This document shows, one piece after another, positions 7,396 to 64,000 of a stretch of DNA of 64,000 nt. Position 1 is the stretch's first letter. Every line of letters starts with the position of its first letter. Source of the stretch: Taenia hydatigena (Eukaryota; Platyhelminthes; Cestoda; Cyclophyllidea; Taeniidae); NCBI GenBank assembly GCA_036345935.2, contig JADWOT020000031.1, positions 188,550 through 252,549 of the forward strand, in the 5' to 3' direction. The notes under the pieces were generated by a model, which saw only the letters and a program-made list of their open reading frames with translations, searched no databases and had not been told where the DNA came from. The translations under genes and the position numbers were made by a program.

Positions 7396-9192
7396 CCAGC
7401 ATGATTAGCTAGATGTTTTGAATTTGGTCTTCCTTGTGAAGAACAGAACCTGCAAGTTAACAACTCAAAATGAGCAATATTTTGGAAAGCTAGAACTGAC
7501 GCCTCATCGCGATTTCGTCAGCAATGAGAAAATCTATAAAGCAAAAGCATAAAACACAATTGTGAGCCCTTGCTTCAAATTACCGAAAGTCAGTCTGTGA
7601 AATATATCTTTGATCCTCCTGATAGCTCCATGCATTATTGCCGCCCGGTATTATGTTCCGGCAACAATGGACGCAAAGTGTTGTCGTTGACTGATTGTGG
7701 CTGGTGACTGCAAGCGAGTTTAAACACGCAGTTTATTGTGGTGAATACATTAGATGCTTGCATAAAAAGACTTCTAAGCCGTGAAAGCATATCCTGCACA
7801 TCGCTGTTCAGAATGCATTGGGTTAACGAGGTGCACTTATGAAGAATGCAACTTATATTCCCTGAACAGAGTTTGTCATCACGACATTAGAGTGTGGTCA
7901 ACCCAACCACTTGATTAATTATACCTATGGGCGCCAAATATTAAGGCTCTATTCATCTTACATTATGGTTATTCGAGGTAACATTTAGACAAGCGACGTT
8001 TCCAGGAGAGAACATGGTGGATGGTATAGGCAGGACAAAAACCGGGTATACCGCAATAAAATCCGTCTCTCTCTCCCCCTTTCACTTTCGTGCTTTAACA
8101 TATTTAGCCTTTTCAGCCACCCCTTACATACAGGACGATAGCGAAGACGGCATACGTTAGCTATTTTGTAGCTTACTGCTTTACGATGGTGCAGCCACTG
8201 ATAATTATAGTCTTTGACTTATTTGTGATGATTGGATGCCGAGCGTAAGATAGTTGCTCCAAATTTTCAATAAAAGGAATAATTCTAGCATTTAAAACAA
8301 CGTTTAATGTTACATTACATTCATTTAAAGTCTTTATAAATGCATACGCTTGCCTTTAAATTATGTCCAATCTGTAGTCGCTTTATTGGGTCCACATTAT
8401 GGATATCAGCTGTAGTCAAGCTGTGCGAAAACGCAGGCTTTATTGCGATGTTGCCATTTGTTGATACACTTCGAACTTTCTATTCGCATCGATATCTCAT
8501 TTTTCGATAAGGTTGTCTTTAATATTATGGGATGGCCTTGCGATCTAGGCGACAATTATTGGTAGAATTTATGCCACATAAGGTAAAAAAGTCCTAAAAC
8601 TGGACTTTGTGTGAGCAAGGCGTATGCTATTTTACAAATATTTGGGTGATGAAAATGCTCCTGAGATTCGCCTCTGCTTAAAGGAATGCAGAAGACATTA
8701 AATGTAGTTGCCAGAAAGTTAGCACCGTCATTTGGGGATTGATACGAATGAATGGATATTCCTGTGGTATTCAATGTCTTTTAAGGAGGGAGTGTCACCC
8801 TTCGACATTCCTAAAAATGGTAGCGAATGGCGCGCTATTAGCAGCCTTCAATAATTACGTCCTTGGCGGTAACCGTACAGACAATTACCGTTTGTCTTAG
8901 TTGAGAAATGTTCCATATTTCATAAATTAGTCCATATATTCTTAGCGGCTATTCGGCAAGCGGAATGATGGTGTGACATGATCTCTAGCCGAGAGATCCA
9001 TTGTCTCGAGTGGCAACATTCCATAAAACTGAGCTTGGGAGTGCAGGTTAGAGGGATGAGACAGAATGCTTGGTTCGAGGTATGATTTCGGAGCCACGGT
9101 TGCTAAGGCGAATCCTTAATTGTCAAGCCACTATGAACACGTTTAAAATCAAGTCTCAACAAATACTTGCGTTCCTTGGGAAGGTGGTTAGG

Positions 9193-9219
9193 TGCTTACG
9201 TGGAAGCGTCACGTAAGCA
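9193..9219. repeat. Perfect 10-base hairpin (left arm; mirror 60976-61002)
   Basis: TGCTTACGTG, 7-base loop, CACGTAAGCA. Confidence 0.85.
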
Positions 9220-9409
9220 TCCAAAATGCCTGAATGAGTTTGCTTAGGCAATACGTTTAGGCGACCATCCACAGATGCGTATAGCAGTTAAGTTAACAAA
9301 ACACGTCAATGCTTTTTGATTCACATAATAACAAACAAATCAAAGACAAGTACTCCCACCGCAGTCACGTGTGCAACGTCAATTCATCAACAGACTAATA
9401 TTGTCAATT

Positions 9410-10390
9410 AACTCTCACTAAGTTTAAATAGGCAAAAAAGTACTAGACTACAGCGAACCTGTTCCTGTCATTTTACCCCAAATATAGGCATCAAACTAAA
9501 CATCTAATCTACAAAAATTCTCTATGGCAATTTATCCTCACTGAAGACGCGTAAATAAAATAAACTGATCTGCAAGAGAGTATTTTTTGTGTGAGTAAAT
9601 TCTCGCCTTAGTCGCGTGAAAAAAATGAATTAATGTGTGGCAAAACTATCTCAGTCAGTTACTTCTCACTGTGCTTAAAAACAAAAAGACCAATCTGTAA
9701 CCATACCTTTCTCTCCCTAAAGAAGAACAAAACGAACAGTTTTATAAGACCTTTTGTTAGTTAGTTCAGCTGTAGCCACACAGACAAAAACTGGCTAATC
9801 TACGGCAAAGCGTGTCCCTTTTTTCGCGATGACGAATGCTCGTGCAGCACTCCTTGTATCTGCACTTCATAACCTGCACTTTCGCAATAAAGCCTCGGTG
9901 CAAACACACTATGCTTCATGCAGTACACAATAAATAACGGAAACCAAGAAAAACGATGTCCCGGCAGAGGTTTGATAAAGTCGTCAGTGACGTTACTCTT
10001 ATTATTTTATAATTACGTTGCACAATTTTTGAGATTGGTGCTCTCACTGTGTTTATAAAAGCAAAGGCAACTAATCTGATGCTCTTGCTTTAGGTAATGA
10101 TTCCAATTCACTTCGCAACACTTGACAGTTTTGTTTACAAATAACGATTTTCGCGAATAACACGATGGGGTTTAGAGCGGTTTCCTTGCTGCAAGTGGAA
10201 ACGCTGATTTATCGCTCCTTATAAATGCTTTTATAACTGATACGTCCAACTCAAAGCCTCATTGCAAATTCACTAAGCTTCATAAAATATGTGATTACTG
10301 AAAAATGAGCAAAAGAATATTTCGGCAAGGTCTTTAAGAAGCCGTCAACGTTAAGGCTGTTCTTATACATTTATGGGCATGCAAACTGCA
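9410..10390 (+). repeat. Diverged tandem repeat (left arm; mirror 59805-60785)
   Basis: A motif like CTCACTGTGTTTAAAAAC, followed by an A-rich stretch and AATCTG, recurs at about 9414, 9538, 9663, 9779 (partial) and 10043. A second block starting AAAGCCTC..GTGCAAA..CACTA.GCTTCAT recurs at about 9890 and 10255, giving a higher-order period near 360 bases. Copies are strongly diverged. A related ATTCACTAAACTTCGTAA occurs at about 6596, outside the arms. Confidence 0.5.
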
Positions 10391-11336
10391 TTAATTTTAG
10401 CTGCTAAGAGTCATCGCTACACGCATTTAGCTGTCGATCTTATAAAATAAATTTTCTGGTTATGCACGCCTCTTTCTGAAAGGTTTATGCAGAGAGGATT
10501 AAGCACGCTCTAAGAAGGTCGCCTGCTCGCCGATCACATGACTAGTGTGCATGCACTCAATGGCCTCCGTGTTATGAATCAGACAAAATGTAGAATCTGG
10601 TGCCATCTCACCCCCTGCTTTTATCATCAAGCCTCATATCTCGTGTCACAAAATATACTTACGTCCTTTTGACGGTGGGTCTTCAGCTATCGTCCTCTGC
10701 ACCATTCACAGCATTGAACAATTCCGTGCTAAATACCAGTTCTCTTTTAAATGGCAGCAGAAAATATAAAGGCTTTACTTCTCTTTCTGTAGGTATAGTT
10801 TACTAAAGGATTTTCACGGTACAAAACCTTTCTTCTGTTCTTTCTTTGCTTGTGTTTCACAACAATGTGGAGGTTAATCGTCACATTATAAACAATGGCA
10901 AGATATCGAAAACAAATCGTTCAATTCAATTGCAGCCGTTAAAGTTGCATTTCGACAGACGTTTAGCCTTCAATGCTGCAAAGTAATTTTTTTGATTTTG
11001 CATGATTCCACATGAAAATGTTTTGCAGAAACCATGAGTCATTTAAAGAATTGGAGTTTCAGCATAGTGCGCCTTTAGATCACAAGGCTGACGTGCATGA
11101 TTCAACGCATTAGCCGATGGCTCATGAGTTCACGTTTGCTCGTACTTACGCTCACCTAATGATCCCTGCTTCAGCAATGATTTTCGTTACTTCTCATCAT
11201 CCATTTTCTCAATTGATCCTTCAACTGAGATTGAATGGAGAGCTGGCTGTTGGCGTAAGCTCTGCATTTATTACCGATTAACGGGTAATATGGTCGCCAA
11301 AGCTCATTATAGAGAATGTGATGTCCTGAATTCTCG

Positions 11337-11555
11337 TTACTGTCGCAATAAGCTGAGACTGTGCTGGAGAACATACTGATTACGACAGCGCAAAAAGGAT
11401 GAGAGGCCATTAGCATGACGTGAATGCCATTTCTTGGAGTGATTTACAGCTTCCAGAGCGCGAATCATCAGATTGCTACGCAAATTGCTTTGTTCTAGCA
11501 TAAAGTAGTTCTGTAAGAAGTAGTTGCTTGAGCGTGAGGCCCCTGTGATATTCAC
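11337..11555 (-). CDS. Candidate exon, longer allele (left arm copy)
   Basis: This is the mirror of 58640-58831 without the stop; it ends QHSLSLLRQ. A second frame on the same strand (11171-11416; right 58779-59024) overlaps it and ends QLRKWMMRSNENHC. I could not decide which is coding, or whether a very short intron joins them: the phases do not match for the obvious sites. Confidence 0.28.
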   Translation of the reverse strand: MNITGASRSSNYFLQNYFMLEQSNLRSNLMIRALEAVNHSKKWHSRHANGLSSFLRCRNQYVLQHSLSLLRQ

Positions 11556-14164
11556 CTGATTCTATGGTTGTAAGAATTGACTCGGTAAAGAATATTACGC
11601 ATCACAGTGCAGTAACGGAAGGATCATAGTTTGTAGTGGCATACCAATGTGCTGGGAATCCTCTAACTACAGTCAGAGCTCCTTTCTCTTCCAATATGAT
11701 CCTTAATCTGTTTTGTCATTAAGGCGCTATGGAGCGTCGAATTAATTCCCCTTAGCTGGTGTCGAAATGGCAAGCTTCTCTCTTCGCGACACTTTCTACA
11801 GCTGTTGGTGCACACGGTTGTCTAGCCAGTTTGACAAATTCTGATGGCCCTTATCCTCACACTTGAGTTCTGGCAGTAGCTGCTGCTGCTGGTTGGATAG
11901 GAAACTAGTCCAAAGGCTGGCTCATGAACCAAGATTCGCCACCTAAATTTAAACTCAGCACAAATCGAAACCTGTTTGCTACTGCCATCCAAATACCACA
12001 GGCTCATCTCTATCATTCTCTACCGTAACATCAAACGCAGACAGACTCACTCATTTTTATGACCGAAAATGCCTCATTATACGCTTCTAATAGCTGGTTT
12101 GCGCATAAAAGCTTAAATATCTTGAGGAACATGCACCGCATCGATTATGAGGATCCGCTTATAATCAAACGGTAAACCCGTCGAGATTCAGTGTCGACTC
12201 CTGCAATGGCTGCAACTAATGCACTGACTTACTGCAGCTCTATTTACTTCCGTGGTTCAAGTTCCATGGTCCGTGCAAATTGACTAAAATAAGCAACAAC
12301 TTACTTGAAGGTGAGCGTTGTTTCGCGACAGCAGGTTCGCCTAGGCGGACTCATTTGTTTTCATGCGAGCAACCATGAAGGTGAAAACTCTGAGACCATG
12401 GACAGGAACGTTTCCCTCGATTCGAAGAAATGCTCAGCGTTGTGCTGTGGCTTTCCATAGCCAAGCAATAAGTTTCAGCATACCAGCAAATTAATACAAT
12501 TGTTTTTCTACGCTTTGCCAAACGTACCCCATCAGAGCGGACCTACTTACACATCAATGGTAATGTGACGAAATGTCGAAAATTGCATCTGCCATTATAA
12601 AATAGTTTGCTGTGATCAATCCTCAATCGCTAAATAAGGCGCAAGATTGTCAGTCGATTCTTTTCTGGATCAGTATAATCCTGTAGTGAGATTAAGCGAC
12701 GCGTTTAACAAGTACAAAATTTGCGTTATAATAGTTGAAGTGAGCGGTGTAGGCAAACCCACCGGTGCTGGTAGTTGCTGACGATAGTGCAGACCCTCCT
12801 TAATTTCAATCATGTGGATGCTTTCCAATGCAAGTGCAGTCATGCATTCCTGTTTCACCCAAAACGGCCCAATGGCGGTGAGTTTTTACTGTGCATAAAG
12901 GCTTCTGAGGTCTTATTTTAGTTCATTGCATTTGTAATGGGCAGGCAAGGATAAATCCGGTAATCATGGTGACTACGTAGCTTTGTAGCAATGTGTTAAC
13001 GTAGCCCCAGCGCCAGCCGTTATAAACTCCCCATCCTTGGCACAAATCAAATCCACGGTGGCTTGCCCTGATAATCGCTGGCATTAGAAGCCTTTACATG
13101 TTCTGTTTCTAAGCTTTATCTCCCTTTGTTTATAAAGTTTACTTTCATTACATTTGGGTTAACTTATTCGCATTCCAATGGCGATCACTTACATTGCTAA
13201 AGGTTTGGGTACGAAATAGCTCACAACATGAAAATACTGATGCATATCTTAATTGGCTTCTAAGGTGTGCAGCTACCTTGACGCTTCCGGCTAAATGAGG
13301 ATGTTTGGATTCCTTCCGCACTTCAATTCCTCACCCTCAGACGGCAGCACGTTTGTAAGATTATTGTGCTAGACAACCGTCTTTGCCAGTCACTTTTCTC
13401 CAAACATTCTCGAATTCCACCAGAAATCCTTCCAAAGCTCTTCCATATAACGGAGGCGATCGGAACTCCACTGAAGTTTTCTATTCATATTTGACCCTAA
13501 CGCATGTTTTTGTTTAAAGCACCAAAAGTTTGATTCGCCAATTGATCCTTAAAAAATAAAAACGGTTGTTCTCGTAACCTGCGCGCGGTCAGAAGTACGC
13601 TTTTGTTCTAGCTAAGAAAGAGCGAAAACGACCAAAACTTTTACGCATTCAAAAGCATTGATGTGTTTTTCTTCTCTGCCTCTGATTTGGTTGGTTGGGT
13701 AATTTAACAAGTAATAACCCACTAAAGCCGTACGATTGTCATGCTAAGGGTCAACACGGCATTCAAATTGGTTCGATTCTGCGCAAGGGCTGATGCTCTG
13801 GGCTGCGACTAATAAGTTTTGTGGTGTTAGAATAAAACAATTGTCGTTTTCGCGGGGAGGATAAAGCGCCGCATGGGGTACAGCCAATAAAGCTGAAAGT
13901 AGGAATCAAATAGCGAACAACCGCCTATCTTCCTTGCCCGTCGTCGCCTACTGGCACGCCTGCTTCATAAGGCATCTACCGTAAGCACAGCCGCAAACAC
14001 TGCCACGGCGTCAATGGTAGCAGAATTGGTTTGTACTTACAGAAACTTTAAAACCACTGCATTACATTTGCGAAAAATGGACTGATATAAGGAGGATGCG
14101 CGCTGTTTGACTGCAGCAGTTGATAATGATGAAGAGGGAAAGAGAGTAAAGTTGAACGCTAATT

Positions 14165-14233
14165 TAGGTTCGTGGCCTGATGAGGAAAGCGTCTGACTCC
14201 AAATCGGAGGATTACGGGTTTGAGTTTTTTTAG
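14165..14233 (+). pseudogene. tRNA-Trp-like relic (left arm)
   Basis: The stretch GCGTCTGACTCCAAATCGGA matches the D-arm end and anticodon arm of a eukaryotic tRNA-Trp, with CCA anticodon at 14199-14201. Upstream GTGGCCTGATGAGG resembles an A box, and downstream CGGGTTTGAGT resembles a B box. The acceptor and T stems no longer pair and a T run follows. It is either a dead tRNA copy or the head of a tRNA-derived SINE; I saw no SINE body or second copy outside the arms. Confidence 0.4.
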
Positions 14234-15345
14234 GGCAATGAAATTCCCTCATCTCATCCGCTGCTTGTGATGGCACAAAGCTAATTTATGCAGCACCACA
14301 CGACTTCATTAGTGTTCTTGTTACCAAACTAATGGCGAATGCGTTGATGTCAACTTGGTTCTTGTAGGTGGCAACAAGATTATTGCCGCATAGCAAAGTG
14401 AGGAAGTTGAGCAGCTATGTCTTTACGAAGTAGAGCATAATTTAGACGCTTTAGCTATAATCACAGTTGTCGCCTGCAATGCGCAAATAGGCCTAATAAG
14501 GTAGACTATGTTCAGATAGATACGCCATTTATCGGAGAACTAAAAATGCTAATTAGAGTGAGATGGTATGCGTTAGAGCCTCATAATTGAGAATGAATGG
14601 CAGTCGCCAAAAGAGATGCGAAGAGATTGGTAAACTTTGTAGTCGCATCAGAGTAGGATCGAAGAAAATGGTTGGACATCGAGGGAGTGCGTATAAGGGC
14701 CACTTGCTTAATTAATTGGTAAATGATGGATAAGTGCGCAGGTGGGTGAACAGGCTACCCAATAATTGCTTTAATTTTGCTGCTAGTAGACTCACTATGG
14801 GCAGTTGCCATGTAAGTACGCTTGGATATTTGGATGGTCGAGTTGCAATACCACACACCATTGGTAAAGAACACGATGGAGTGGGTGAACGTTTCACTCC
14901 TTGCCATGAATGAGCAGCAGCCTTCACCCTCATCACCTCTGTTCTCTTTGTCAATGTTACTCTAAGTACCATCATTGTCGCTACGTCATTTATGCAAGCG
15001 ACGTTTTTCACATTACACGCTTACCTGCTTAGGTGTCTAAGGTACGTGGCTATAACTTAGGGCTTAATACCTCCTTTTCTAACAGCTACATTTTCCGGCA
15101 CAACCTTCTCTGTGCCTATCCGTATGCTACAGCGGTCACCTCCCATATTCGTTAAAAGTTCTGGTGTCCAAGTTGTCCACTTACGAGGCAAATTACTTAA
15201 TGTGGGTGGTGCTCGCTACAGTTTTAGCTGAATAACATTTCGATCTCCTGCAAATCACTTTTATTCTATTGGTATGAAGGTAACTTTTATAAGCGTTGAA
15301 GGCTTTAATAGGTTCTAACGCTATCCCCTTAACAGCGAAGAGCTG

Positions 15346-15364
15346 CCTACTGGCGCCCAGTAGG
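15346..15364. repeat. Perfect 8-base hairpin with 3-base loop (left arm; mirror 54831-54849)
   Basis: CCTACTGG, CGC, CCAGTAGG. Confidence 0.85.
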
Positions 15365-16625
15365 ATACTGCAAGAAAGGGAACTTACAAAAGCTGTAAAG
15401 ATTTTAGTATAGACTGCCTGTGAGAGAAAATCATGTTAACCTTATAGACCCCCCTATGCAGCATCACTGACAAACATTTCCCAAGCTTTGTAAAGCCAGT
15501 CTTATTTAATCAGGCACTCATTTTGAATTCTGAGCTTCACCTAATAGCATGAAGCAGCAGTTCCAAATACAACATCGGCCAGTGAGCTCTGATTTTAATG
15601 AGTGCGATATCAAGAGCACGTAATAAAATCGCGATCCACCACTTCCACTAGGCCAAACTTCAGCTGTTTCTGCGTTCACCGGTGGCTGGTTTGGGGTGTG
15701 TTCGATAGCATTTTACTTGAAGAAACTGTATAGTTTCCTCAAAAAGCACGACACTCCTAGCCTCTTCTTCTCCTCACTTCCCGTGCTTTTCTGTCCAACT
15801 ATCCATCCATCTGCCTGCCAAACCATCTATCAAGCAAAAATAATTAACATTCGTTTATTCTCGAACGTGCCTGCGATTCATTGAATAACACAAAAGACCT
15901 GCACATTCCTTCCCATACACACATAGAGCCTAAAAGTCAAAAAGGTGAAAGGCTAAAATAACTATTCCAATAAGCGTCGTCGACTTCTAAGTGCTTTGAT
16001 GTAGGGGCTTCCATTGACCGCTGCGTCAGAAACGTGCTTACTGCGATAGATGGTTACGACTATGAACTACATACTTAAGGCCTGCTGAGAATCTCTTTTT
16101 TGTCCTTTTGCATTTGACGGACGTGCAAATCCTTCTTCAGGTGGCAGTGTAGAGAGGAGGTCTGCATGCTGTGAGCAAATATCAAAGCGAAGACCTAGAT
16201 GAACTTAGAGTGAACTTTCGCAATGATAAATTTAGGCTAAGGTCCAACTTCTCACATCGACGTAGGACAGATCGGGCACTAGCGCCAAGATCAACTGCCT
16301 AATTCTTCTTGATAGCAGTGCTGGAATTGTTAATGATCTTGGTCGGCTTATAATCCGCATTAAAAGCCATTAAATCCAAACCTTTTGCATGCGCTGCGTG
16401 ACGCATCGATTTCAAAAGCTGGAAGAAACAAAAGGACGTCTATTGGGATTATATTTTCAAGACGGATATTTGAGCACTAATTTTCAAAGGCAAGCTTTCT
16501 ACACTCGTTTATCTGCATTGATTTGATGGATGTGGATGGCTGAGAGTCTGACAGGTTATCCAGTGGGTAGACTGGATTCTGTGCATCAAGTCCAAAAACA
16601 AAGCGAACCTCTCATCAACCTCTAA

Positions 16626-17060
16626 GTCCTCAACGATGACTGTGAGTGTACGGGGTGTTCACCTGCACAGAAACCAAATCACCAAATGAGAGGATTGAGA
16701 TTGACGAGAAGAAATTTGGAAACCGTAACCATTTACCTGTCATTCTTGCATGTAATCATCTCCATCAGGTGGGGCCACGTTGCCTACCATGATGCCTTGT
16801 CGAGCAATTGTAGAGCAATTACCGGACGTTCCACTAAATTTGAGAACCTGATAGCTGTTTCTACCACGCAAATGTATGAAAACTTACCTCTTGGACTGTC
16901 AAAGTGTGCATACTACGCATTGGGCTCCGCCTTGCTAACGGCCGGCCAATTCGAGTGCAGGGCCAGTTTTACAGTTAGAGGAAGATTGGATGGACATTTT
17001 TGCGCTCCTAATCTAGCAAATGAACCATCCACCGCTACTCTAGATAGAACTCCTTCGTGA
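16626..17060 (+). CDS. Open frame of 144 codons with an antisense rival (left arm; mirror 53135-53569 minus)
   Basis: The plus frame is open from 16626 to a stop at 17058-17060 and begins VLNDDCECTGCSPAQ. On the other strand a 71-codon frame (16913-17128; right arm 53067-53282) reads SRVAVDGSFARLGAQKCPSN and looks at least as protein-like. The strong donor-type sequence AAGAG|GTAAGT (right arm, near 53308) is on that antisense strand. One of the two may be an exon. I recognise neither product. Confidence 0.3.
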   Translation, partial: VLNDDCECTGCSPAQKPNHQMRGLRLTRRNLETVTIYLSFLHVIISIRWGHVAYHDALSSNCRAITGRSTKFENLIAVSTTQMYENLPLGLSKCAYYALGSALLTAGQFECRASFTVRGRLDGHFCAPNLANEPSTATLDRTPS

Positions 17061-17649
17061 CTGCTTCCATGTTTAGCTTCAATCTTGTTGACCCCTTGTG
17101 AGACATTAAGAGGAAGATTAGTGAGCCGTTATGTCTATTGCGTCGCCATACCGAATGGTTCTCAACCACCTGTCACAATCAGATTGCCTTTACGGTAGTC
17201 CAGAGCAGCATCAGACAATTTCGCTGCAGTCCGCGAGCGACATTTGTGTTTTCGTAGACATAAAAATCTTGGTGACATTCAGAAGTGGCTTAAAATACGT
17301 ACTGTCATTGTAGTCAATTTGGCAGTATCTTGATGAGAGACAAAGTGGATCTTGGTGGTAAAAATAGCGTACCATGGAGCCTGCACTGTTAGAATGTAGG
17401 ACCACTCCTTGATGAAAACCTGCGAAAACTCCCCACTTACTTGCCTGCCTACTTACTGGTCTCGTAATCGGCACAGATTGAATAACGAAACTTTGCAATC
17501 ATGTGATTTATAACATGGATTCGTTAACGAATAATTGGTTAACACATGAGCTGAAGACTTACCTACCACCAATAAGAGCGCTTCCGGTGACGATCCCTGT
17601 GCTAGCATATTCTATATCGCTCAACATCAAACATTTCTATTAAAAATAG

Positions 17650-17877
17650 ATTTGTGATTTGGCTGCAAGTGGTAGGCATATGCTGATGGTAATGCCCGTG
17701 AAACAAGCTTTAGCTCAATCAAAGTTTTCCACTGACGTACTACAGCATGGCTTAATAGTTAGGGCATGGACAAATGTAAAGGGATTAAAACGATGCATTA
17801 ATCACATGTGTGATGTAATCCCAGAAGAGTTTGAAGTGGGCAAAAGTTACGGCAACCCAAAGAAATTGGACAGATAG
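17650..17877 (+). CDS. Candidate terminal exon (left arm; mirror 52318-52545 minus)
   Basis: After an acceptor-like AAAAATAG (ending 17649), 75 codons run to TAG. The product includes KQALAQSKFSTDVLQHG, CINHMCDVIPEEFEVG and ends SYGNPKKLDR. Composition is balanced and hydrophilic at the end, like a real C-terminus. The family is unknown. Its strand is opposite to that of the zinc-finger exons of this arm. Confidence 0.3.
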   Translation: MCDLAASGRHMLMVMPVKQALAQSKFSTDVLQHGLIVRAWTNVKGLKRCINHMCDVIPEEFEVGKSYGNPKKLDR

Positions 17878-19605: not shown

Positions 19606-19628
19606 GAACCGTTATCATATAACGGTTC
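19606..19628. repeat. Perfect 10-base hairpin (left arm; mirror 50453-50475)
   Basis: GAACCGTTAT, loop CAT, ATAACGGTTC. There is no T run after it and no known site type. Confidence 0.85.
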
Positions 19629-21346: not shown

Positions 21347-21425
21347 AGGTTGGGGTACGTCAGCCCGGATTAGTACAGGCTTGGGTGAAGGGGATGGAAA
21401 GCTCGAGATTGCTGAGCCACTTTAT
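21347..21425 (+). repeat. Isolated diverged copy of the 4330-6390 core module (left arm)
   Basis: This stretch follows the same order as the core module: GGTTGGGGTACGTC, then CCCGGATTAGTACAGG, then GGAAAGCTCGAG and TTTATCTCACTTTCC. It is diverged from the cluster copies. It shows that the module is a dispersed repeat family and not confined to the cluster outside the arms. Confidence 0.6.
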
Positions 21426-21887
21426 CTCACTTTCCTTATCTGATTCTACTTCATCATATTGTCCTCTCTATTTACCTTCCTCCGCTCACTTCAATTGCGC
21501 TTGCATCTCGGCGCAACATAGTCTGGAATCTAAATCCCATTTGGTTGTTGACGAATTAAATGAAGTAATTTTCATTCATCAATGATTTGATGAATGGATG
21601 TTGTCACATAAGTTTAAACTATTTGCAACAGATGGCTTCATTTTGCATCAAAAAAGACACGTTAACGAGCCAAAAGAATCTACGTGATTTCGCTTCTCCT
21701 TCCTACTTCTTGCCTCCCACCTTCATCAGCGCGCCTTACTGAGTCGTTTCGGTACGGGAGGCAATTTATAGTGAACCATTAATTGAAACCGAAATAGAAG
21801 ATGCAGAAACTACAAGATCAGGACTAAACGGATGTCAAATGTATGCGAATTCTCATCCCAGTGAACAAGTGTTACAAATGTTTATAT

Positions 21888-51204: not shown

Positions 51205-51403
51205 TGTTCCATCGGATAATAAGTAATGTGTGTTGGGCATGTAATGCTGCCGTTGTGCTTCGCGCTGCACATTGAACAAGAAAAGTTGTNNNNNNNNNNN
51301 NNNNNNNNNNNNNNNNNNTGTTCCATCGGATAATAAGTAATGTGTGTTGGGCATGTAATGCTGCCGTTGTGCTTCGCGCTGCACATTGAACAAGAAAAGT
51401 TGT
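51205..51403. other. Assembly gap with doubled flank (right arm)
   Basis: There are 29 Ns (51290-51318). The 85 bases before the gap (51205-51289) and the 85 after it (51319-51403) are identical. The left arm has this sequence once (around 18792-18876). The doubling is therefore most likely an unmerged overlap in scaffolding and not biology. Confidence 0.92.
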
Positions 51404-54400
51404 TTAACTCGGTATGGGGTAAGTCACCCCAATTGCAAACAAATAGCTGTAAGGAAAAATTAGGCAATATAACCCATAGCCACTTATCTAAATTGCCATT
51501 CCTCTTGGCTCATACCTTGCAAAGACAGTTGCACATCTAAAACGTAAATTCTCTCGCACCAAAGCCGTTAAGAGACGTAGTCTAACGCTTACATATAAAG
51601 AAGCTTTGAGGTTTACCAGCCTCTTTAGCCGCTGCTGCTATAGAACTGCTGCGCGAATTTCTGTGGTACAAATGGTACCTGTACTTTTGTTCAATAGTTT
51701 TGATGGTCTTGTATCCAGTCTAAAGAAGGCTTCTTGGACTAATCTATTTAGCTAGACCTTATCCAAGCACTATGCACTGATGTGTTGTGATCCTATGCGC
51801 TAAGAAATGCTGATGTGATGTGGTGCTAAGGCGGCTTTAAAAATAATCTGCTTCTATATAGCAGGGTTTAAGCTAGCTGTTCATTATCTCGTTGTTAAAC
51901 ATGGACGACAGAGATGAGATCGACATCCGACTCTCTTTCGTCCAGTTAGGTAAAATTTATGTGTTTAGACGGTAAATGACTTGACGTAGTTCAGAGATTG
52001 TGCGGGTGTGCCGCCACCGCCTGAGTTCGCCTACCTCCATGTACGCGACAGTGCTTTCTAATTCTGTGTAAGTTTGATTGCAGGACATACTTAAGGTCAC
52101 CCATTTTCACCGCATTTGTTAACAAAGCATTTAGACTGACATATGTGCACCAAATATTTTAGCAAATCTTAGTTCTTTTAGACCCGGCTGCCTGTATGTT
52201 TAGTGAAACCTGAACCTATACGAGTCTCAAACTAATTCCAAAGTTTGCTCTCGAAACGGCATCGTGGTAATGTTTCGTATTATGAGGCGCCACTTTACTT
52301 CATTTGTACTCTACCAACTATCTGTCCAATTTCTTTGGGTTGCCGTAACTTTTGCCCACTTCAAACTCTTCTGGGATTACATCACACATGTGATTAATGC
52401 ATCGTTTTAATCCCTTTACATTTGTCCATGCCCTAACTATTAAGCCATGCTGTAGTACGTCAGTGGAAAACTTTGATTGAGCTAAAGCTTGTTTCACGGG
52501 CATTACCATCAGCATATGCCTACCACTTGCAGCCAAATCACAAATCTATTTTTAATAGAAATGTTTGATGTTGAGCGATATAGAATATGCTAGCACAGGG
52601 ATCGTCACCGGAAGCGCTCTTATTGGTGGTAGGTAAGTCTTCAGCTCATGTGTTAACCAATTATTCGTTAACGAATCCATGTTATAAATCACATGATTGC
52701 AAAGTTTCGTTATTCAATCTGTGCCGATTACGAGACCAGTAAGTAGGCAGGCAAGTAAGTGGGGAGTTTTCGCAGGTTTTCATCAAGGAGTGGTCCTACA
52801 TTCTAACAGTGCAGGCTCCATGGTACGCTATTTTTACCACCAAGATCCACTTTGTCTCTCATCAAGATACTGCCAAATTGACTACAATGACAGTACGTAT
52901 TTTAAGCCACTTCTGAATGTCACCAAGATTTTTATGTCTACGAAAACACAAATGTCGCTCGCGGACTGCAGCGAAATTGTCTGATGCTGCTCTGGACTAC
53001 CGTAAAGGCAATCTGATTGTGACAGGTGGTTGAGAACCATTCGGTATGGCGACGCAATAGACATAACGGCTCACTAATCTTCCTCTTAATGTCTCACAAG
53101 GGGTCAACAAGATTGAAGCTAAACATGGAAGCAGTCACGAAGGAGTTCTATCTAGAGTAGCGGTGGATGGTTCATTTGCTAGATTAGGAGCGCAAAAATG
53201 TCCATCCAATCTTCCTCTAACTGTAAAACTGGCCCTGCACTCGAATTGGCCGGCCGTTAGCAAGGCGGAGCCCAATGCGTAGTATGCACACTTTGACAGT
53301 CCAAGAGGTAAGTTTTCATACATTTGCGTGGTAGAAACAGCTATCAGGTTCTCAAATTTAGTGGAACGTCCGGTAATTGCTCTACAATTGCTCGACAAGG
53401 CATCATGGTAGGCAACGTGGCCCCACCTGATGGAGATGATTACATGCAAGAATGACAGGTAAATGGTTACGGTTTCCAAATTTCTTCTCGTCAATCTCAA
53501 TCCTCTCATTTGGTGATTTGGTTTCTGTGCAGGTGAACACCCCGTACACTCACAGTCATCGTTGAGGACTTAGAGGTTGATGAGAGGTTCGCTTTGTTTT
53601 TGGACTTGATGCACAGAATCCAGTCTACCCACTGGATAACCTGTCAGACTCTCAGCCATCCACATCCATCAAATCAATGCAGATAAACGAGTGTAGAAAG
53701 CTTGCCTTTGAAAATTAGTGCTCAAATATCCGTCTTGAAAATATAATCCCAATAGACGTCCTTTTGTTTCTTCCAGCTTTTGAAATCGATGCGTCACGCA
53801 GCGCATGCAAAAGGTTTGGATTTAATGGCTTTTAATGCGGATTATAAGCCGACCAAGATCATTAACAATTCCAGCACTGCTATCAAGAAGAATTAGGCAG
53901 TTGATCTTGGCGCTAGTGCCCGATCTGTCCTACGTCGATGTGAGAAGTTGGACCTTAGCCTAAATTTATCATTGCGAAAGTTCACTCTAAGTTCATCTAG
54001 GTCTTCGCTTTGATATTTGCTCACAGCATGCAGACCTCCTCTCTACACTGCCACCTGAAGAAGGATTTGCACGTCCGTCAAATGCAAAAGGACAAAAAAG
54101 AGATTCTCAGCAGGCCTTAAGTATGTAGTTCATAGTCGTAACCATCTATCGCAGTAAGCACGTTTCTGACGCAGCGGTCAATGGAAGCCCCTACATCAAA
54201 GCACTTAGAAGTCGACGACGCTTATTGGAATAGTTATTTTAGCCTTTCACCTTTTTGACTTTTAGGCTCTATGTGTGTATGGGAAGGAATGTGCAGGTCT
54301 TTTGTGTTATTCAATGAATCGCAGGCACGTTCGAGAATAAACGAATGTTAATTATTTTTGCTTGATAGATGGTTTGGCAGGCAGATGGATGGATAGTTGG

Positions 54401-55183
54401 ACAGAAAAGCACGGGAAGTGAGGAGAAGAAGAGGCTAGGAGTGTCGTGCTTTTTGAGGAAACTATACAGTTTCTTCAAGTAAAATGCTATCGAACACACC
54501 CCAAACCAGCCACCGGTGAACGCAGAAACAGCTGAAGTTTGGCCTAGTGGAAGTGGTGGATCGCGATTTTATTACGTGCTCTTGATATCGCACTCATTAA
54601 AATCAGAGCTCACTGGCCGATGTTGTATTTGGAACTGCTGCTTCATGCTATTAGGTGAAGCTCAGAATTCAAAATGAGTGCCTGATTAAATAAGACTGGC
54701 TTTACAAAGCTTGGGAAATGTTTGTCAGTGATGCTGCATAGGGGGGTCTATAAGGTTAACATGATTTTCTCTCACAGGCAGTCTATACTAAAATCTTTAC
54801 AGCTTTTGTAAGTTCCCTTTCTTGCAGTATCCTACTGGGCGCCAGTAGGCAGCTCTTCGCTGTTAAGGGGATAGCGTTAGAACCTATTAAAGCCTTCAAC
54901 GCTTATAAAAGTTACCTTCATACCAATAGAATAAAAGTGATTTGCAGGAGATCGAAATGTTATTCAGCTAAAACTGTAGCGAGCACCACCCACATTAAGT
55001 AATTTGCCTCGTAAGTGGACAACTTGGACACCAGAACTTTTAACGAATATGGGAGGTGACCGCTGTAGCATACGGATAGGCACAGAGAAGGTTGTGCCGG
55101 AAAATGTAGCTGTTAGAAAAGGAGGTATTAAGCCCTAAATTATAGCCACGTACCTTAGACACCTAAGCAGGTAAGCGTGTAAT

Positions 55184-55483
55184 GTGAAAAACGTCGCTTG
55201 CATAAATGACGTAGCGACAATGATGGTACTTAGAGTAACATTGACAAAGAGAACAGAGGTGATGAGGGTGAAGGCTGCTGCTCATTCATGGCAAGGAGTG
55301 AAACGTTCACCCACTCCATCGTGTTCTTTACCAATGGTGTGTGGTATTGCAACTCGACCATCCAAATATCCAAGCGTACTTACATGGCAACTGCCCATAG
55401 TGAGTCTACTAGCAGCAAAATTAAAGCAATTATTGGGTAGCCTGTTCACCCACCTGCGCACTTATCCATCATTTACCAATTAA
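55184..55483 (+). CDS. Unrecognised 99-codon open frame (right arm; mirror 14712-15011 minus)
   Basis: The product is basic in its first half (LTKRTEVMRVKAAAHSW) and hydrophobic later (LLAAKLKQLLGSLF). A donor-like CAG|GTAAGC lies just before it at about 55169, which argues that the frame may be intronic. No family is recognised. Confidence 0.22.
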   Translation: MKNVACINDVATMMVLRVTLTKRTEVMRVKAAAHSWQGVKRSPTPSCSLPMVCGIATRPSKYPSVLTWQLPIVSLLAAKLKQLLGSLFTHLRTYPSFTN

Positions 55484-55961
55484 TTAAGCAAGTGGCCCTT
55501 ATACGCACTCCCTCGATGTCCAACCATTTTCTTCGATCCTACTCTGATGCGACTACAAAGTTTACCAATCTCTTCGCATCTCTTTTGGCGACTGCCATTC
55601 ATTCTCAATTATGAGGCTCTAACGCATACCATCTCACTCTAATTAGCATTTTTAGTTCTCCGATAAATGGCGTATCTATCTGAACATAGTCTACCTTATT
55701 AGGCCTATTTGCGCATTGCAGGCGACAACTGTGATTATAGCTAAAGCGTCTAAATTATGCTCTACTTCGTAAAGACATAGCTGCTCAACTTCCTCACTTT
55801 GCTATGCGGCAATAATCTTGTTGCCACCTACAAGAACCAAGTTGACATCAACGCATTCGCCATTAGTTTGGTAACAAGAACACTAATGAAGTCGTGTGGT
55901 GCTGCATAAATTAGCTTTGTGCCATCACAAGCAGCGGATGAGATGAGGGAATTTCATTGCC

Positions 55962-56030
55962 CTAAAAAAACTCAAACCCGTAATCCTCCGATTTGGAGTC
56001 AGACGCTTTCCTCATCAGGCCACGAACCTA
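55962..56030 (-). pseudogene. tRNA-Trp-like relic (right arm copy)
   Basis: This is the mirror of 14165-14233 with the same sequence on the minus strand. Confidence 0.4.
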
Positions 56031-57336
56031 AATTAGCGTTCAACTTTACTCTCTTTCCCTCTTCATCATTATCAACTGCTGCAGTCAAACAGCGCGCATC
56101 CTCCTTATATCAGTCCATTTTTCGCAAATGTAATGCAGTGGTTTTAAAGTTTCTGTAAGTACAAACCAATTCTGCTACCATTGACGCCGTGGCAGTGTTT
56201 GCGGCTGTGCTTACGGTAGATGCCTTATGAAGCAGGCGTGCCAGTAGGCGACGACGGGCAAGGAAGATAGGCGGTTGTTCGCTATTTGATTCCTACTTTC
56301 AGCTTTATTGGCTGTACCCCATGCGGCGCTTTATCCTCCCCGCGAAAACGACAATTGTTTTATTCTAACACCACAAAACTTATTAGTCGCAGCCCAGAGC
56401 ATCAGCCCTTGCGCAGAATCGAACCAATTTGAATGCCGTGTTGACCCTTAGCATGACAATCGTACGGCTTTAGTGGGTTATTACTTGTTAAATTACCCAA
56501 CCAACCAAATCAGAGGCAGAGAAGAAAAACACATCAATGCTTTTGAATGCGTAAAAGTTTTGGTCGTTTTCGCTCTTTCTTAGCTAGAACAAAAGCGTAC
56601 TTCTGACCGCGCGCAGGTTACGAGAACAACCGTTTTTATTTTTTAAGGATCAATTGGCGAATCAAACTTTTGGTGCTTTAAACAAAAACATGCGTTAGGG
56701 TCAAATATGAATAGAAAACTTCAGTGGAGTTCCGATCGCCTCCGTTATATGGAAGAGCTTTGGAAGGATTTCTGGTGGAATTCGAGAATGTTTGGAGAAA
56801 AGTGACTGGCAAAGACGGTTGTCTAGCACAATAATCTTACAAACGTGCTGCCGTCTGAGGGTGAGGAATTGAAGTGCGGAAGGAATCCAAACATCCTCAT
56901 TTAGCCGGAAGCGTCAAGGTAGCTGCACACCTTAGAAGCCAATTAAGATATGCATCAGTATTTTCATGTTGTGAGCTATTTCGTACCCAAACCTTTAGCA
57001 ATGTAAGTGATCGCCATTGGAATGCGAATAAGTTAACCCAAATGTAATGAAAGTAAACTTTATAAACAAAGGGAGATAAAGCTTAGAAACAGAACATGTA
57101 AAGGCTTCTAATGCCAGCGATTATCAGGGCAAGCCACCGTGGATTTGATTTGTGCCAAGGATGGGGAGTTTATAACGGCTGGCGCTGGGGCTACGTTAAC
57201 ACATTGCTACAAAGCTACGTAGTCACCATGATTACCGGATTTATCCTTGCCTGCCCATTACAAATGCAATGAACTAAAATAAGACCTCAGAAGCCTTTAT
57301 GCACAGTAAAAACTCACCGCCATTGGGCCGTTTTGG

Positions 57337-57525
57337 GTGAAACAGGAATGCATGACTGCACTTGCATTGGAAAGCATCCACATGATTGAAATTAAGGAGG
57401 GTCTGCACTATCGTCAGCAACTACCAGCACCGGTGGGTTTGCCTACACCGCTCACTTCAACTATTATAACGCAAATTTTGTACTTGTTAAACGCGTCGCT
57501 TAATCTCACTACAGGATTATACTGA
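57337..57525 (+). CDS. Candidate exon (right arm; mirror 12670-12858 minus)
   Basis: The frame reads QECMTALALESIHMIEIKEG and LHYRQQLPAPVGLPTPLT before a hydrophobic end. GTGAAACAG just before it can serve as an acceptor, and ACCG|GTGGGT inside it as a donor. It shares the strand of the zinc-finger exons but is 18 kb away. No domain is recognised. Confidence 0.28.
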   Translation: MKQECMTALALESIHMIEIKEGLHYRQQLPAPVGLPTPLTSTIITQILYLLNASLNLTTGLY

Positions 57526-58639
57526 TCCAGAAAAGAATCGACTGACAATCTTGCGCCTTATTTAGCGATTGAGGATTGATCACAGCAAACTATTTTATAA
57601 TGGCAGATGCAATTTTCGACATTTCGTCACATTACCATTGATGTGTAAGTAGGTCCGCTCTGATGGGGTACGTTTGGCAAAGCGTAGAAAAACAATTGTA
57701 TTAATTTGCTGGTATGCTGAAACTTATTGCTTGGCTATGGAAAGCCACAGCACAACGCTGAGCATTTCTTCGAATCGAGGGAAACGTTCCTGTCCATGGT
57801 CTCAGAGTTTTCACCTTCATGGTTGCTCGCATGAAAACAAATGAGTCCGCCTAGGCGAACCTGCTGTCGCGAAACAACGCTCACCTTCAAGTAAGTTGTT
57901 GCTTATTTTAGTCAATTTGCACGGACCATGGAACTTGAACCACGGAAGTAAATAGAGCTGCAGTAAGTCAGTGCATTAGTTGCAGCCATTGCAGGAGTCG
58001 ACACTGAATCTCGACGGGTTTACCGTTTGATTATAAGCGGATCCTCATAATCGATGCGGTGCATGTTCCTCAAGATATTTAAGCTTTTATGCGCAAACCA
58101 GCTATTAGAAGCGTATAATGAGGCATTTTCGGTCATAAAAATGAGTGAGTCTGTCTGCGTTTGATGTTACGGTAGAGAATGATAGAGATGAGCCTGTGGT
58201 ATTTAGATGGCAGTAGCAAACAGGTTTCGATTTGTGCTGAGTTTAAATTTAGGTGGCGAATCTTGGTTCATGAGCCAGCCTTTGGACTAGTTTCCTATCC
58301 AACCAGCAGCAGCAGCTACTGCCAGAACTCAAGTGTGAGGATAAGGGCCATCAGAATTTGTCAAACTGGCTAGACAACCGTGTGCACCAACAGCTGTAGA
58401 AAGTGTCGCGAAGAGAGAAGCTTGCCATTTCGACACCAGCTAAGGGGAATTAATTCGACGCTCCATAGCGCCTTAATGACAAAACAGATTAAGGATCATA
58501 TTGGAAGAGAAAGGAGCTCTGACTGTAGTTAGAGGATTCCCAGCACATTGGTATGCCACTACAAACTATGATCCTTCCGTTACTGCACTGTGATGCGTAA
58601 TATTCTTTACCGAGTCAATTCTTACAACCATAGAATCAG

Positions 58640-58831
58640 GTGAATATCACAGGGGCCTCACGCTCAAGCAACTACTTCTTACAGAACTACTTTATGCTAG
58701 AACAAAGCAATTTGCGTAGCAATCTGATGATTCGCGCTCTGGAAGCTGTAAATCACTCCAAGAAATGGCATTCACGTCATGCTAATGGCCTCTCATCCTT
58801 TTTGCGCTGTCGTAATCAGTATGTTCTCTAG
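58640..58831 (+). CDS. Candidate exon with an arm-specific stop (right arm)
   Basis: After CAACCATAG (acceptor-like) the frame reads NITGASRSSNYFLQNYFMLE, LRSNLMIRALEAVNHSKKWH and SSFLRCRNQYV. In this arm a TAG at 58829-58831 ends it. The left-arm copy (11337-11555) has CAG there and continues for nine more residues. A GTATGT at 58819 could be a donor instead, which would make the stop irrelevant. The product is unknown. Confidence 0.3.
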   Translation: MNITGASRSSNYFLQNYFMLEQSNLRSNLMIRALEAVNHSKKWHSRHANGLSSFLRCRNQYVL

Positions 58832-59804
58832 CACAGTCTCAGCTTATTGCGACAGTAACGAGAATTCAGGACATCACATTCTCTATAATGAGCTTTGGCG
58901 ACCATATTACCCGTTAATCGGTAATAAATGCAGAGCTTACGCCAACAGCCAGCTCTCCATTCAATCTCAGTTGAAGGATCAATTGAGAAAATGGATGATG
59001 AGAAGTAACGAAAATCATTGCTGAAGCAGGGATCATTAGGTGAGCGTAAGTACGAGCAAACGTGAACTCATGAGCCATCGGCTAATGCGTTGAATCATGC
59101 ACGTCAGCCTTGTGATCTAAAGGCGCACTATGCTGAAACTCCAATTCTTTAAATGACTCATGGTTTCTGCAAAACATTTTCATGTGGAATCATGCAAAAT
59201 CAAAAAAATTACTTTGCAGCATTGAAGGCTAAACGTCTGTCGAAATGCAACTTTAACGGCTGCAATTGAATTGAACGATTTGTTTTCGATATCTTGCCAT
59301 TGTTTATAATGTGACGATTAACCTCCACATTGTTGTGAAACACAAGCAAAGAAAGAACAGAAGAAAGGTTTTGTACCGTGAAAATCCTTTAGTAAACTAT
59401 ACCTACAGAAAGAGAAGTAAAGCCTTTATATTTTCTGCTGCCATTTAAAAGAGAACTGGTATTTAGCACGGAATTGTTCAATGCTGTGAATGGTGCAGAG
59501 GACGATAGCTGAAGACCCACCGTCAAAAGGACGTAAGTATATTTTGTGACACGAGATATGAGGCTTGATGATAAAAGCAGGGGGTGAGATGGCACCAGAT
59601 TCTACATTTTGTCTGATTCATAACACGGAGGCCATTGAGTGCATGCACACTAGTCATGTGATCGGCGAGCAGGCGACCTTCTTAGAGCGTGCTTAATCCT
59701 CTCTGCATAAACCTTTCAGAAAGAGGCGTGCATAACCAGAAAATTTATTTTATAAGATCGACAGCTAAATGCGTGTAGCGATGACTCTTAGCAGCTAAAA
59801 TTAA

Positions 59805-60785
59805 TGCAGTTTGCATGCCCATAAATGTATAAGAACAGCCTTAACGTTGACGGCTTCTTAAAGACCTTGCCGAAATATTCTTTTGCTCATTTTTCAGTAA
59901 TCACATATTTTATGAAGCTTAGTGAATTTGCAATGAGGCTTTGAGTTGGACGTATCAGTTATAAAAGCATTTATAAGGAGCGATAAATCAGCGTTTCCAC
60001 TTGCAGCAAGGAAACCGCTCTAAACCCCATCGTGTTATTCGCGAAAATCGTTATTTGTAAACAAAACTGTCAAGTGTTGCGAAGTGAATTGGAATCATTA
60101 CCTAAAGCAAGAGCATCAGATTAGTTGCCTTTGCTTTTATAAACACAGTGAGAGCACCAATCTCAAAAATTGTGCAACGTAATTATAAAATAATAAGAGT
60201 AACGTCACTGACGACTTTATCAAACCTCTGCCGGGACATCGTTTTTCTTGGTTTCCGTTATTTATTGTGTACTGCATGAAGCATAGTGTGTTTGCACCGA
60301 GGCTTTATTGCGAAAGTGCAGGTTATGAAGTGCAGATACAAGGAGTGCTGCACGAGCATTCGTCATCGCGAAAAAAGGGACACGCTTTGCCGTAGATTAG
60401 CCAGTTTTTGTCTGTGTGGCTACAGCTGAACTAACTAACAAAAGGTCTTATAAAACTGTTCGTTTTGTTCTTCTTTAGGGAGAGAAAGGTATGGTTACAG
60501 ATTGGTCTTTTTGTTTTTAAGCACAGTGAGAAGTAACTGACTGAGATAGTTTTGCCACACATTAATTCATTTTTTTCACGCGACTAAGGCGAGAATTTAC
60601 TCACACAAAAAATACTCTCTTGCAGATCAGTTTATTTTATTTACGCGTCTTCAGTGAGGATAAATTGCCATAGAGAATTTTTGTAGATTAGATGTTTAGT
60701 TTGATGCCTATATTTGGGGTAAAATGACAGGAACAGGTTCGCTGTAGTCTAGTACTTTTTTGCCTATTTAAACTTAGTGAGAGTT
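59805..60785 (-). repeat. Diverged tandem repeat (right arm copy)
   Basis: This is the mirror of 9410-10390. The copies within one arm differ strongly, yet each matches its partner in the other arm. The tandem array therefore predates the present identity of the arms. Confidence 0.5.
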
Positions 60786-61420
60786 AATTGACAATATTAG
60801 TCTGTTGATGAATTGACGTTGCACACGTGACTGCGGTGGGAGTACTTGTCTTTGATTTGTTTGTTATTATGTGAATCAAAAAGCATTGACGTGTTTTGTT
60901 AACTTAACTGCTATACGCATCTGTGGATGGTCGCCTAAACGTATTGCCTAAGCAAACTCATTCAGGCATTTTGGATGCTTACGTGACGCTTCCACGTAAG
61001 CACCTAACCACCTTCCCAAGGAACGCAAGTATTTGTTGAGACTTGATTTTAAACGTGTTCATAGTGGCTTGACAATTAAGGATTCGCCTTAGCAACCGTG
61101 GCTCCGAAATCATACCTCGAACCAAGCATTCTGTCTCATCCCTCTAACCTGCACTCCCAAGCTCAGTTTTATGGAATGTTGCCACTCGAGACAATGGATC
61201 TCTCGGCTAGAGATCATGTCACACCATCATTCCGCTTGCCGAATAGCCGCTAAGAATATATGGACTAATTTATGAAATATGGAACATTTCTCAACTAAGA
61301 CAAACGGTAATTGTCTGTACGGTTACCGCCAAGGACGTAATTATTGAAGGCTGCTAATAGCGCGCCATTCGCTACCATTTTTAGGAATGTCGAAGGGTGA
61401 CACTCCCTCCTTAAAAGACA

Positions 61421-61639
61421 TTGAATACCACAGGAATATCCATTCATTCGTATCAATCCCCAAATGACGGTGCTAACTTTCTGGCAACTACATTTAATGT
61501 CTTCTGCATTCCTTTAAGCAGAGGCGAATCTCAGGAGCATTTTCATCACCCAAATATTTGTAAAATAGCATACGCCTTGCTCACACAAAGTCCAGTTTTA
61601 GGACTTTTTTACCTTATGTGGCATAAATTCTACCAATAA
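61421..61639 (+). CDS. Unrecognised 72-codon open frame (right arm; mirror 8556-8774 minus)
   Basis: The frame reads NTTGISIHSYQSPNDGANFL and ends LGLFYLMWHKFYQ. It lies near the outer edge of the arm on the same strand as the zinc-finger exons. No domain or firm splice site was found. Confidence 0.2.
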   Translation: MNTTGISIHSYQSPNDGANFLATTFNVFCIPLSRGESQEHFHHPNICKIAYALLTQSPVLGLFYLMWHKFYQ

Positions 61640-62799
61640 TTGTCGCCTAGATCGCAAGGCCATCCCATAATATTAAAGACAACCTTATCGAAAAATGAGA
61701 TATCGATGCGAATAGAAAGTTCGAAGTGTATCAACAAATGGCAACATCGCAATAAAGCCTGCGTTTTCGCACAGCTTGACTACAGCTGATATCCATAATG
61801 TGGACCCAATAAAGCGACTACAGATTGGACATAATTTAAAGGCAAGCGTATGCATTTATAAAGACTTTAAATGAATGTAATGTAACATTAAACGTTGTTT
61901 TAAATGCTAGAATTATTCCTTTTATTGAAAATTTGGAGCAACTATCTTACGCTCGGCATCCAATCATCACAAATAAGTCAAAGACTATAATTATCAGTGG
62001 CTGCACCATCGTAAAGCAGTAAGCTACAAAATAGCTAACGTATGCCGTCTTCGCTATCGTCCTGTATGTAAGGGGTGGCTGAAAAGGCTAAATATGTTAA
62101 AGCACGAAAGTGAAAGGGGGAGAGAGAGACGGATTTTATTGCGGTATACCCGGTTTTTGTCCTGCCTATACCATCCACCATGTTCTCTCCTGGAAACGTC
62201 GCTTGTCTAAATGTTACCTCGAATAACCATAATGTAAGATGAATAGAGCCTTAATATTTGGCGCCCATAGGTATAATTAATCAAGTGGTTGGGTTGACCA
62301 CACTCTAATGTCGTGATGACAAACTCTGTTCAGGGAATATAAGTTGCATTCTTCATAAGTGCACCTCGTTAACCCAATGCATTCTGAACAGCGATGTGCA
62401 GGATATGCTTTCACGGCTTAGAAGTCTTTTTATGCAAGCATCTAATGTATTCACCACAATAAACTGCGTGTTTAAACTCGCTTGCAGTCACCAGCCACAA
62501 TCAGTCAACGACAACACTTTGCGTCCATTGTTGCCGGAACATAATACCGGGCGGCAATAATGCATGGAGCTATCAGGAGGATCAAAGATATATTTCACAG
62601 ACTGACTTTCGGTAATTTGAAGCAAGGGCTCACAATTGTGTTTTATGCTTTTGCTTTATAGATTTTCTCATTGCTGACGAAATCGCGATGAGGCGTCAGT
62701 TCTAGCTTTCCAAAATATTGCTCATTTTGAGTTGTTAACTTGCAGGTTCTGTTCTTCACAAGGAAGACCAAATTCAAAACATCTAGCTAATCATGCTGG

Positions 62800-63997: not shown

Positions 63998-64000
63998 AGG

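Follow-up and report, generated by a model that had tools for sequence, protein, structure and literature searches.

A near-perfect palindrome of two dispersed repeat units in a tapeworm genome, probably homogenised by copying between its arms

Near-perfect palindromes are mostly discussed on sex chromosomes, where they are regarded as a protection of genes against decay, and the locus described here raises the question of how two inverted arms of 25 kb, in which we found no gene, have become almost identical. The stretch analysed, called the window below, comprises 64,000 bases and corresponds to C1034:188550-252549 of an assembly with 306,030,797 bases in 1,354 contigs, C1034 itself having 359,850 bases (contigs are given as C and a number). 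The palindrome in the window (P1) is, in our opinion, probably real, and its arms probably owe their near-identity to sequence transfer between two older copies of a dispersed unit in inverted orientation, either by gene conversion or by break-induced copying. The evidence for this explanation comes mainly from the borders of the arms, where the two copies have kept different neighbours.

Geometry of the palindrome

Self-alignment of the window placed two inverted arms, 7396-32410 and 37669-62799, on either side of a 5,258-base spacer (32411-37668), which confirms the palindrome with two 25-kb arms and a 5.3-kb spacer that an initial annotation of the sequence had reported at the same place. 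The inverted match consists of two parts, one of 13,621 columns with 5 mismatches and 2 gap columns (18792-32410/51289-37669) and one of 11,481 columns with 3 mismatches (7396-18876/62799-51319). Compared base by base, the arms differ by 8 substitutions, 7 of them transitions, and by one 2-base indel at a T/A run (25037 / 45042-45043), and they are about 99.97% alike; together with a run of 29 N in arm B, this bears out the few substitutions, the 2-base homopolymer change and the single assembly blemish of that annotation. The divergence of the arms is 8 in about 25,000 sites, as against 122 of the 835 compared sites directly outside them. P1 therefore has long inverted arms more than 99% identical around a distinct spacer, the match of the arms is far above chance expectation, and self-alignment found no inverted homology internal to the spacer. 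The main parts are as follows.

Arm A, 7396..32410, plus strand: the left copy, truncated at 32410; its outermost 43-55 bases are of the subtype called beta below, and the rest of its outer 1 kb is mainly of the subtype called alpha.
Arm B, 37669..62799, minus strand: the right inverted copy, collinear on either side with the remainder of the unit and holding the 29-N gap.
Spacer, 32411..37668, no strand: 5,258 bases, consisting of an element that we call E, a second dispersed repeat and the inner extension of unit B.
29-N gap, 51290..51318, no strand: apparently an unmerged contig overlap, with 85 duplicated bases on each side.

The 85 bases are duplicated on either side of the N run (51205-51289 = 51319-51403), and the blemish looks like the overlapping ends of two contigs left unmerged. 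This run is the sole gap within the 144 kb examined around the window, and the sequence is otherwise gap-free, including 40 kb on each side, so that all four arm borders lie in continuous sequence.

Arms as copies of a dispersed unit and subtypes at their borders

Both arms are copies of one large dispersed unit, which measures about 27 kb or more and has no recognisable coding domain. The genome was searched with three arm queries (7396-15000, 15001-23500 and the inner 0.5-0.9 kb), and the outside copies listed are 67-95% identical to the unit, the arms being much closer to each other. The query 7396-15000 gave at least 55 rows; besides the arms, one copy on C5 matched nearly the full query at 91%, which is also the best-scoring outside copy for the first 7.6 kb of the arm among the matches listed, and these matches further include copies that are 83-92% alike over long stretches on C1057, C8 (two), C1, C920 (two), C359, C681 and C1287. 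The query 15001-23500 gave 64 rows, none of which exceeded 95% outside C1034, and 95% was reached over 711 and 123 bases only. The copy traced over the longest distance is the one on C5, whose matched parts lie within 422,709-448,781 with an unchecked middle of about 8.7 kb, and the copy on C1 is shorter, about 15 kb from the inner end to the outer arm end.

The outer borders of the two arms are different. Inverted homology extends beyond the arms, 6385-7395 matching 63093-64111 at 79-81% (79% over 1,047 columns), and the right side has 293 extra bases (62800-63092) that are absent beside arm A. Of 57 rows listed, 14 lie outside C1034 and span the arm border unbroken, and 11 of these 14 extend more than 1.9 kb into the arm; thus, the layout on the right side, next to arm B, is the standard one, and the left side lacks about 293-303 bases. 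The 293-base segment is present in all seven outside copies that were aligned, with 292 or 293 letters in each. We also considered the flanks as decayed outer arms of one old palindrome, and this was dropped, as the left and right outer flanks, 79-83% alike, are two subtypes of the dispersed unit.

The subtypes were defined by diagnostic sites at which two copies, on C5 and C1 (alpha), agree against four copies on C920, C8, C681 and C359 (beta). A fifth beta copy, the second unit on C920, was not used in choosing the sites and served as a control, and seven further border-crossing rows were left out. The left flank is alpha, with 94.9% identity to C5, 90.1% to C1 and 82-87% to the beta copies, and the right flank is beta, with 90.7-92.4% to the beta copies and 82-84% to the alpha copies. 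The features at the outer borders are listed here.

Left outer flank, 5945..7395, plus strand: alpha continuation of the unit (C5 about 90-95%, C1 88-90%), with about 293-303 bases missing at 7395/7396.
293-base segment, 62800..63092, minus strand: present in B and in seven aligned outside copies, absent beside arm A.
Right outer flank, 62800..64000, minus strand: beta continuation of the unit (C681 92%, C920 92%, C8 and C359 91%), extending past the window to at least 64566.
Beta-to-alpha switch in arm B, 62745..62757, minus strand: its mirror in arm A is 7438-7450.

On the B side, the sites beyond 62799 (to 63802) are beta in 50 cases, alpha in one and neither in one; all five sites from 62796 to 62757 are beta, and from 62745 inward 22 sites are alpha and 3 beta. 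On the A side, the flank sites up to 7368 are alpha in 30 cases and neither in one, site 7395 is beta, all five sites from 7399 to 7438 are beta, and from 7450 on there are again 22 alpha and 3 beta sites. In the control copy, 41 of 42 flank sites are beta and one is neither, all 26 arm sites are beta, and 14 other sites are gaps. In trees, the B flank falls among the beta copies (support 0.83 with C920/C681), the B arm with C5 (0.94) and C1 (1.00), and the A flank with C5. Judged from these sites, the beta tip of 43-55 bases in arm A adjoins an alpha flank, and its continuity with a beta flank appears in B only.

The inner borders are also unequal. Copies on C5, C1 (two), C1059 and C390 continue the arm into the window from 37668 to 35593 at 88-93%, which indicates that the normal unit comprises arm B and 2.08 kb of the spacer, arm A stopping at 32410. 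Of 11 rows of element E on C7, 9 begin at window position 32408 and the other two at 32443; therefore, the terminus of element E coincides with the inner border of arm A within 3 bases. The borders of arm A thus lie at the 293-base loss on the outer side and at the terminus of E on the inner side, and its joins have 0 bases (outer) and at most 3 bases (inner) in common with the alternative neighbour. Neither join was met elsewhere. The spacer contains the following parts.

Element E, 32411..33146, plus strand: dispersed, about 0.74 kb, with 11 listed rows on C7 at 81-83%.
Second dispersed repeat, 33153..35496, plus strand: 82% identical to C8:2036914-2039298.
Inner extension of unit B, 35593..37668, minus strand: follows the arm in C5, C1 (two), C1059 and C390 at 88-93%.

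Some side observations concern these repeats. C7 carries 11 of the 37 listed rows of element E, including most of the better ones, which suggests an expansion of E specific to one chromosome. In C2:23.25-23.50 Mb, E-like rows occur in both orientations and are roughly mirrored, perhaps as a larger old palindrome. Short units that are related to one another, at about 73-94% identity, and lie in both orientations form a cluster at window positions 4329-6413; they recur at 64348-64523 and also upstream of the window, and similar pieces are found in the outer parts of the C5 and C1 copies.

Copying between the arms and its alternatives

If the assembly is right, the palindrome geometry, the dispersed relatives, the different subtype flanks, the beta tip common to both arms and the positions of the heterologies are properties of the locus itself. 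The subtype mosaic, the common beta tip and a control copy that is beta throughout are sequence evidence of non-reciprocal transfer, the basis being two alpha and five beta copies, 5 tip sites and a correct assembly. Copying between A and B is thus supported at the level of sequence, and the arm-to-arm gene conversion put forward in the initial annotation gains support from the subtype mosaic at the outer border. Provided that the assembly is right, P1 belongs to the large palindromes homogenised by conversion.

The history may have started from two old inverted copies of the dispersed unit on one chromosome, turned towards each other with a short run of other repeats between them. Copy A would have been of the alpha subtype with an inner end stopping at element E, and copy B would have kept its inner end and had a beta outer flank. 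Recombinational copying would then have recently overwritten the entire common 25 kb, by gene conversion, probably the repair of a break in A templated by B, or by break-induced replication. We infer the direction, the number of events, the repair pathway and the recency of this copying; that B was the source is deduced from the beta tip of arm A, a tip of five sites. The copying may have begun at the end of E (32410), where A ceases to be homologous, and gone out to 62799, that is, 43-55 bases beyond the alpha/beta switch of B, and the end of the tract would be an imprecise join at which about 293 bases of A were lost. No function for the organism is evident, and the probable effect is a local concerted evolution of repeats.

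The same process may be visible at other loci. The comparison set consists of inverted pairs with both copies on one contig that we met while following the unit, and is no random sample. An inverted pair on C8 is 99.958% identical over 7,113 columns, with arms that almost meet and with limits at another place in the unit than those of P1. On C1, one inverted pair reaches 99.964% over 2,763 columns, and a third copy matches at 99.836% (inverted, over 3,041 columns) and at 99.929% (direct); because this last pair is direct, near-identity is not limited to inverted pairs. A second palindrome on C1034, outside the window and unrelated in sequence, is formed by C1034:68575-83082 and an inverted partner close to the contig's left end; it has 14.5-kb arms, 99.876% alike over 14,509 columns, and a spacer of 51.5 kb, and its outer left end lies beside an N run. 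In this palindrome, 16 of the 18 differing columns fall within 2 kb, which none of 20,000 uniform simulations reached, and such patchiness is as expected of conversion tracts and unlike the prediction of a single recent duplication. These pairs suggest that the homogenising process recurs in the genome. We would tentatively go further and propose, as a possibility that we hold with less than even confidence, that in this tapeworm large dispersed non-coding units which happen to be inverted neighbours frequently become almost identical by rewriting, that this takes place on several chromosomes with neither sex linkage nor genes to protect, and that palindromes keep arising by local concerted evolution, with tract stops set by element insertions or deletions. 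The three C1 copies, of the inner end of the unit, lie in C1:5904558-5949328 and are 99.8-99.96% alike (two inverted pairs and one direct), copies at other loci being about 87-95% alike.

Several points weigh against this explanation of P1 and its extension to other loci. The genome searches covered the arm from 7396 to 23500 and over its inner 0.5-0.9 kb. The inner extension of B is C5-like, as the arm is (93.3%); thus, B would already have been an alpha/beta recombinant before the last transfer, and a history in two steps, in which A was first copied to B and the edge was later copied back to A, is just as possible. The 8 differences within P1 are unclustered, with 19,978 of 20,000 simulations at least as clustered, and since they are more even than chance, there is no mosaic inside P1. 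If long noisy reads were blended in the consensus, the arms could look more alike than they are, and an unmerged contig join lies within arm B. Moreover, some inverted pairs were not homogenised, namely a pair on C920 (87.4% over 1,945 columns), a third C1034 copy compared with arm A in inverted orientation (83%), and three further C1034 pairs of other sequences, about 1-2.4 kb in length (70-80%).

Taken alone, P1 fits one recent event, whose age would be about 1.6e4 to 1.6e5 generations under assumed and merely illustrative rates of 1e-9 to 1e-8 mutations per generation. Such an event could also have been a fresh inverted duplication, in which B was copied backwards by template switching of the fold-back or microhomology-mediated break-induced replication (MMBIR) type and joined to an alpha fragment on the left and to E on the inside, without the overwriting of an older arm A. 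The uniform near-identity of the arms without patchiness would agree with this, as would joins that are blunt or share at most 3 bases, and a short single-copy spacer is usual in fold-back and template-switch duplications. However, the left flank is a collinear alpha continuation of the unit, which resumes only about 293 bases from the end of the copy, and the inner join lies at the terminus of E; a random landing must hit both of these sites, whereas the overwriting of an older copy needs neither coincidence. We therefore consider a fresh duplication unlikely.

The near-identity of the arms could instead be a product of the assembly, in which correction, consensus, gap filling or polishing placed one sequence in both arms of two diverged inverted units, or of one locus. 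The 29-N gap with its 85 duplicated bases in arm B speaks for this possibility, and short reads map to both arms. The published assembly of Taenia hydatigena was made with Canu 1.3 on PacBio reads, Pilon, SSPACE and later Hi-C, and the genome has 308.54 Mb, 43.0% GC and 63% repetitive sequence, with 46.7% unclassified repeats (PMC8384839); if the present sequence comes from these data, such a route could, in our judgement, blend arms longer than the reads. Against an artefact, all four borders lie in gap-free sequence, and arm A joins its neighbours without an overlap usable by an overlap-based assembler: a misjoin would leave common sequence, and the joins share 0 and at most 3 bases, which disfavours a misjoin by overlap. 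Each arm differs from the other in its neighbours, inside and outside, which implies at least two inner and two outer arm ends, and more than one locus must supply them. These neighbours are non-allelic, an alpha against a beta flank on the outer side and E against the continuation of the unit on the inner side, which also disfavours the false duplication, with two haplotypes joined head to head, that had been named as the alternative at the outset. Four of the differences between the arms could be polarised with other copies and are split: 19723 is apparently derived in A, 19923 and 32406 in B (at 32406, five of five other copies agree with A), and 15056 can be read either way. The assembly did separate strongly diverged copies, since the flanks are 79-83% alike, and the arms of the second C1034 palindrome were not blindly merged, since the 2-kb patch of differences was kept. 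An assembly product thus appears improbable to us.

The palindrome might also be the insertion of a giant mobile element whose terminal inverted repeats are long, which would account for a unit that is dispersed over many contigs and at times occurs in inverted pairs. We consider this reading very improbable and already largely refuted: copies pass straight through the supposed outer end (the 14 outside rows) and there are no fixed termini, the limits of the C8 palindrome lie at other points of the unit, and the 293-base segment, as read from the sequence, has no target-site duplication. Furthermore, a six-frame Pfam scan of nearly all unique sequence (one open reading frame (ORF) only within 37301-37668) found no transposase or any other Pfam domain in the window at E<=0.05.

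Gene content, host and known systems

By the same scan, no conserved or testis-type genes were found in the arms, and no Rfam match, tRNA or tandem repeat was found in the window. The arms may still hold a gene that has no known domain, as ORFs are somewhat longer than the Markov expectation: over 1-37668 there are 10 ORFs of at least 120 aa against a Markov mean of 4.0, and 5 of the 10 lie in the arm and spacer. A separate trace at 23172-23869, with its mirror in arm B, consists of pieces in several frames with a sub-threshold match to Integrase_H2C2 (E 0.26), upstream of which lies what we take to be an RNase H-like tail motif, and it is a probable decayed remnant of a long terminal repeat (LTR) retroelement. 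Protein searches gave no match under the threshold for this remnant (18 candidates) or for the longest ORF of the window (33 candidates).

The host can be judged from the sole GST_N exon found in the genome, on C9, which is identical in 70 of 73 residues to the solved sigma glutathione S-transferase (GST) 9c0a, an entry that we take to be from Taenia solium, and is 73% identical to a Hymenolepis diminuta protein; these likenesses support the flatworm genome that the initial annotation had presumed and fit a taeniid tapeworm. One GST_N exon in 306 Mb seems few for an animal. To our knowledge, tapeworms of the taeniid group are hermaphrodites without sex chromosomes, and a sex-chromosome palindrome, which had also been suggested for this locus, is therefore unlikely. 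It finds no support in the distribution of the repeats either, as related near-identical inverted pairs are present on the large scaffolds C8 and C1 as well; the contig of P1, with 360 kb, is below chromosome size.

If the explanation by copying is true, P1, as a hermaphrodite's palindrome apparently devoid of genes and with subtypes that point to transfer between its arms, would suggest that nearness in inverted orientation is by itself sufficient for homogenisation. The visible tract ends, a deletion on one side and an element terminus on the other, offer a natural test of the limits of conversion. Large repeats in such genomes may appear recent though they are old and rewritten, which would bias their dating, and loci of this kind need read-level proof. 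Among the titles listed by a full-text literature search that was partly aimed at tapeworm genera, none concerned tapeworm palindromes.

Among known systems, fold-back inverted duplications have two inverted copies, a single-copy spacer and blunt joins; P1 differs from them in that an older inverted copy of the unit, of the other subtype, is still visible beside arm A. At stalled forks of budding yeast, conversion between linked inverted repeats occurs with or without inversion of the intervening stretch (PMC8748988); the system there is an engineered reporter of two ade2 alleles, whereas P1 is a 25-kb tract deduced from sequence. Palindromes of collinear gene blocks have been counted in Folsomia candida (11) and, as cited there, in Adineta vaga (17), and those of Folsomia show a wide range of divergence which the authors consider unexplained by concerted evolution (PMC5490193). 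These are, like P1, inverted blocks in an invertebrate genome, but they are gene blocks in parthenogens, whereas the arms of P1 are apparently non-coding and 99.97% alike. P1 also resembles the primate X and Y palindromes with arm-to-arm gene conversion: conserved primate X palindromes have a median arm of 37 kb and 99.953% identity (PMC8981503), and minimum conversion tracts of up to 9 kb have been deduced for palindrome P6 (PMC3723533), so that arms of tens of kilobases, an identity near 99.95%, a spacer and long tracts are common to both. The arms of P1, in contrast, are dispersed repeats in which no gene was found, related pairs occur on several scaffolds, and the host is probably a hermaphrodite without sex chromosomes.

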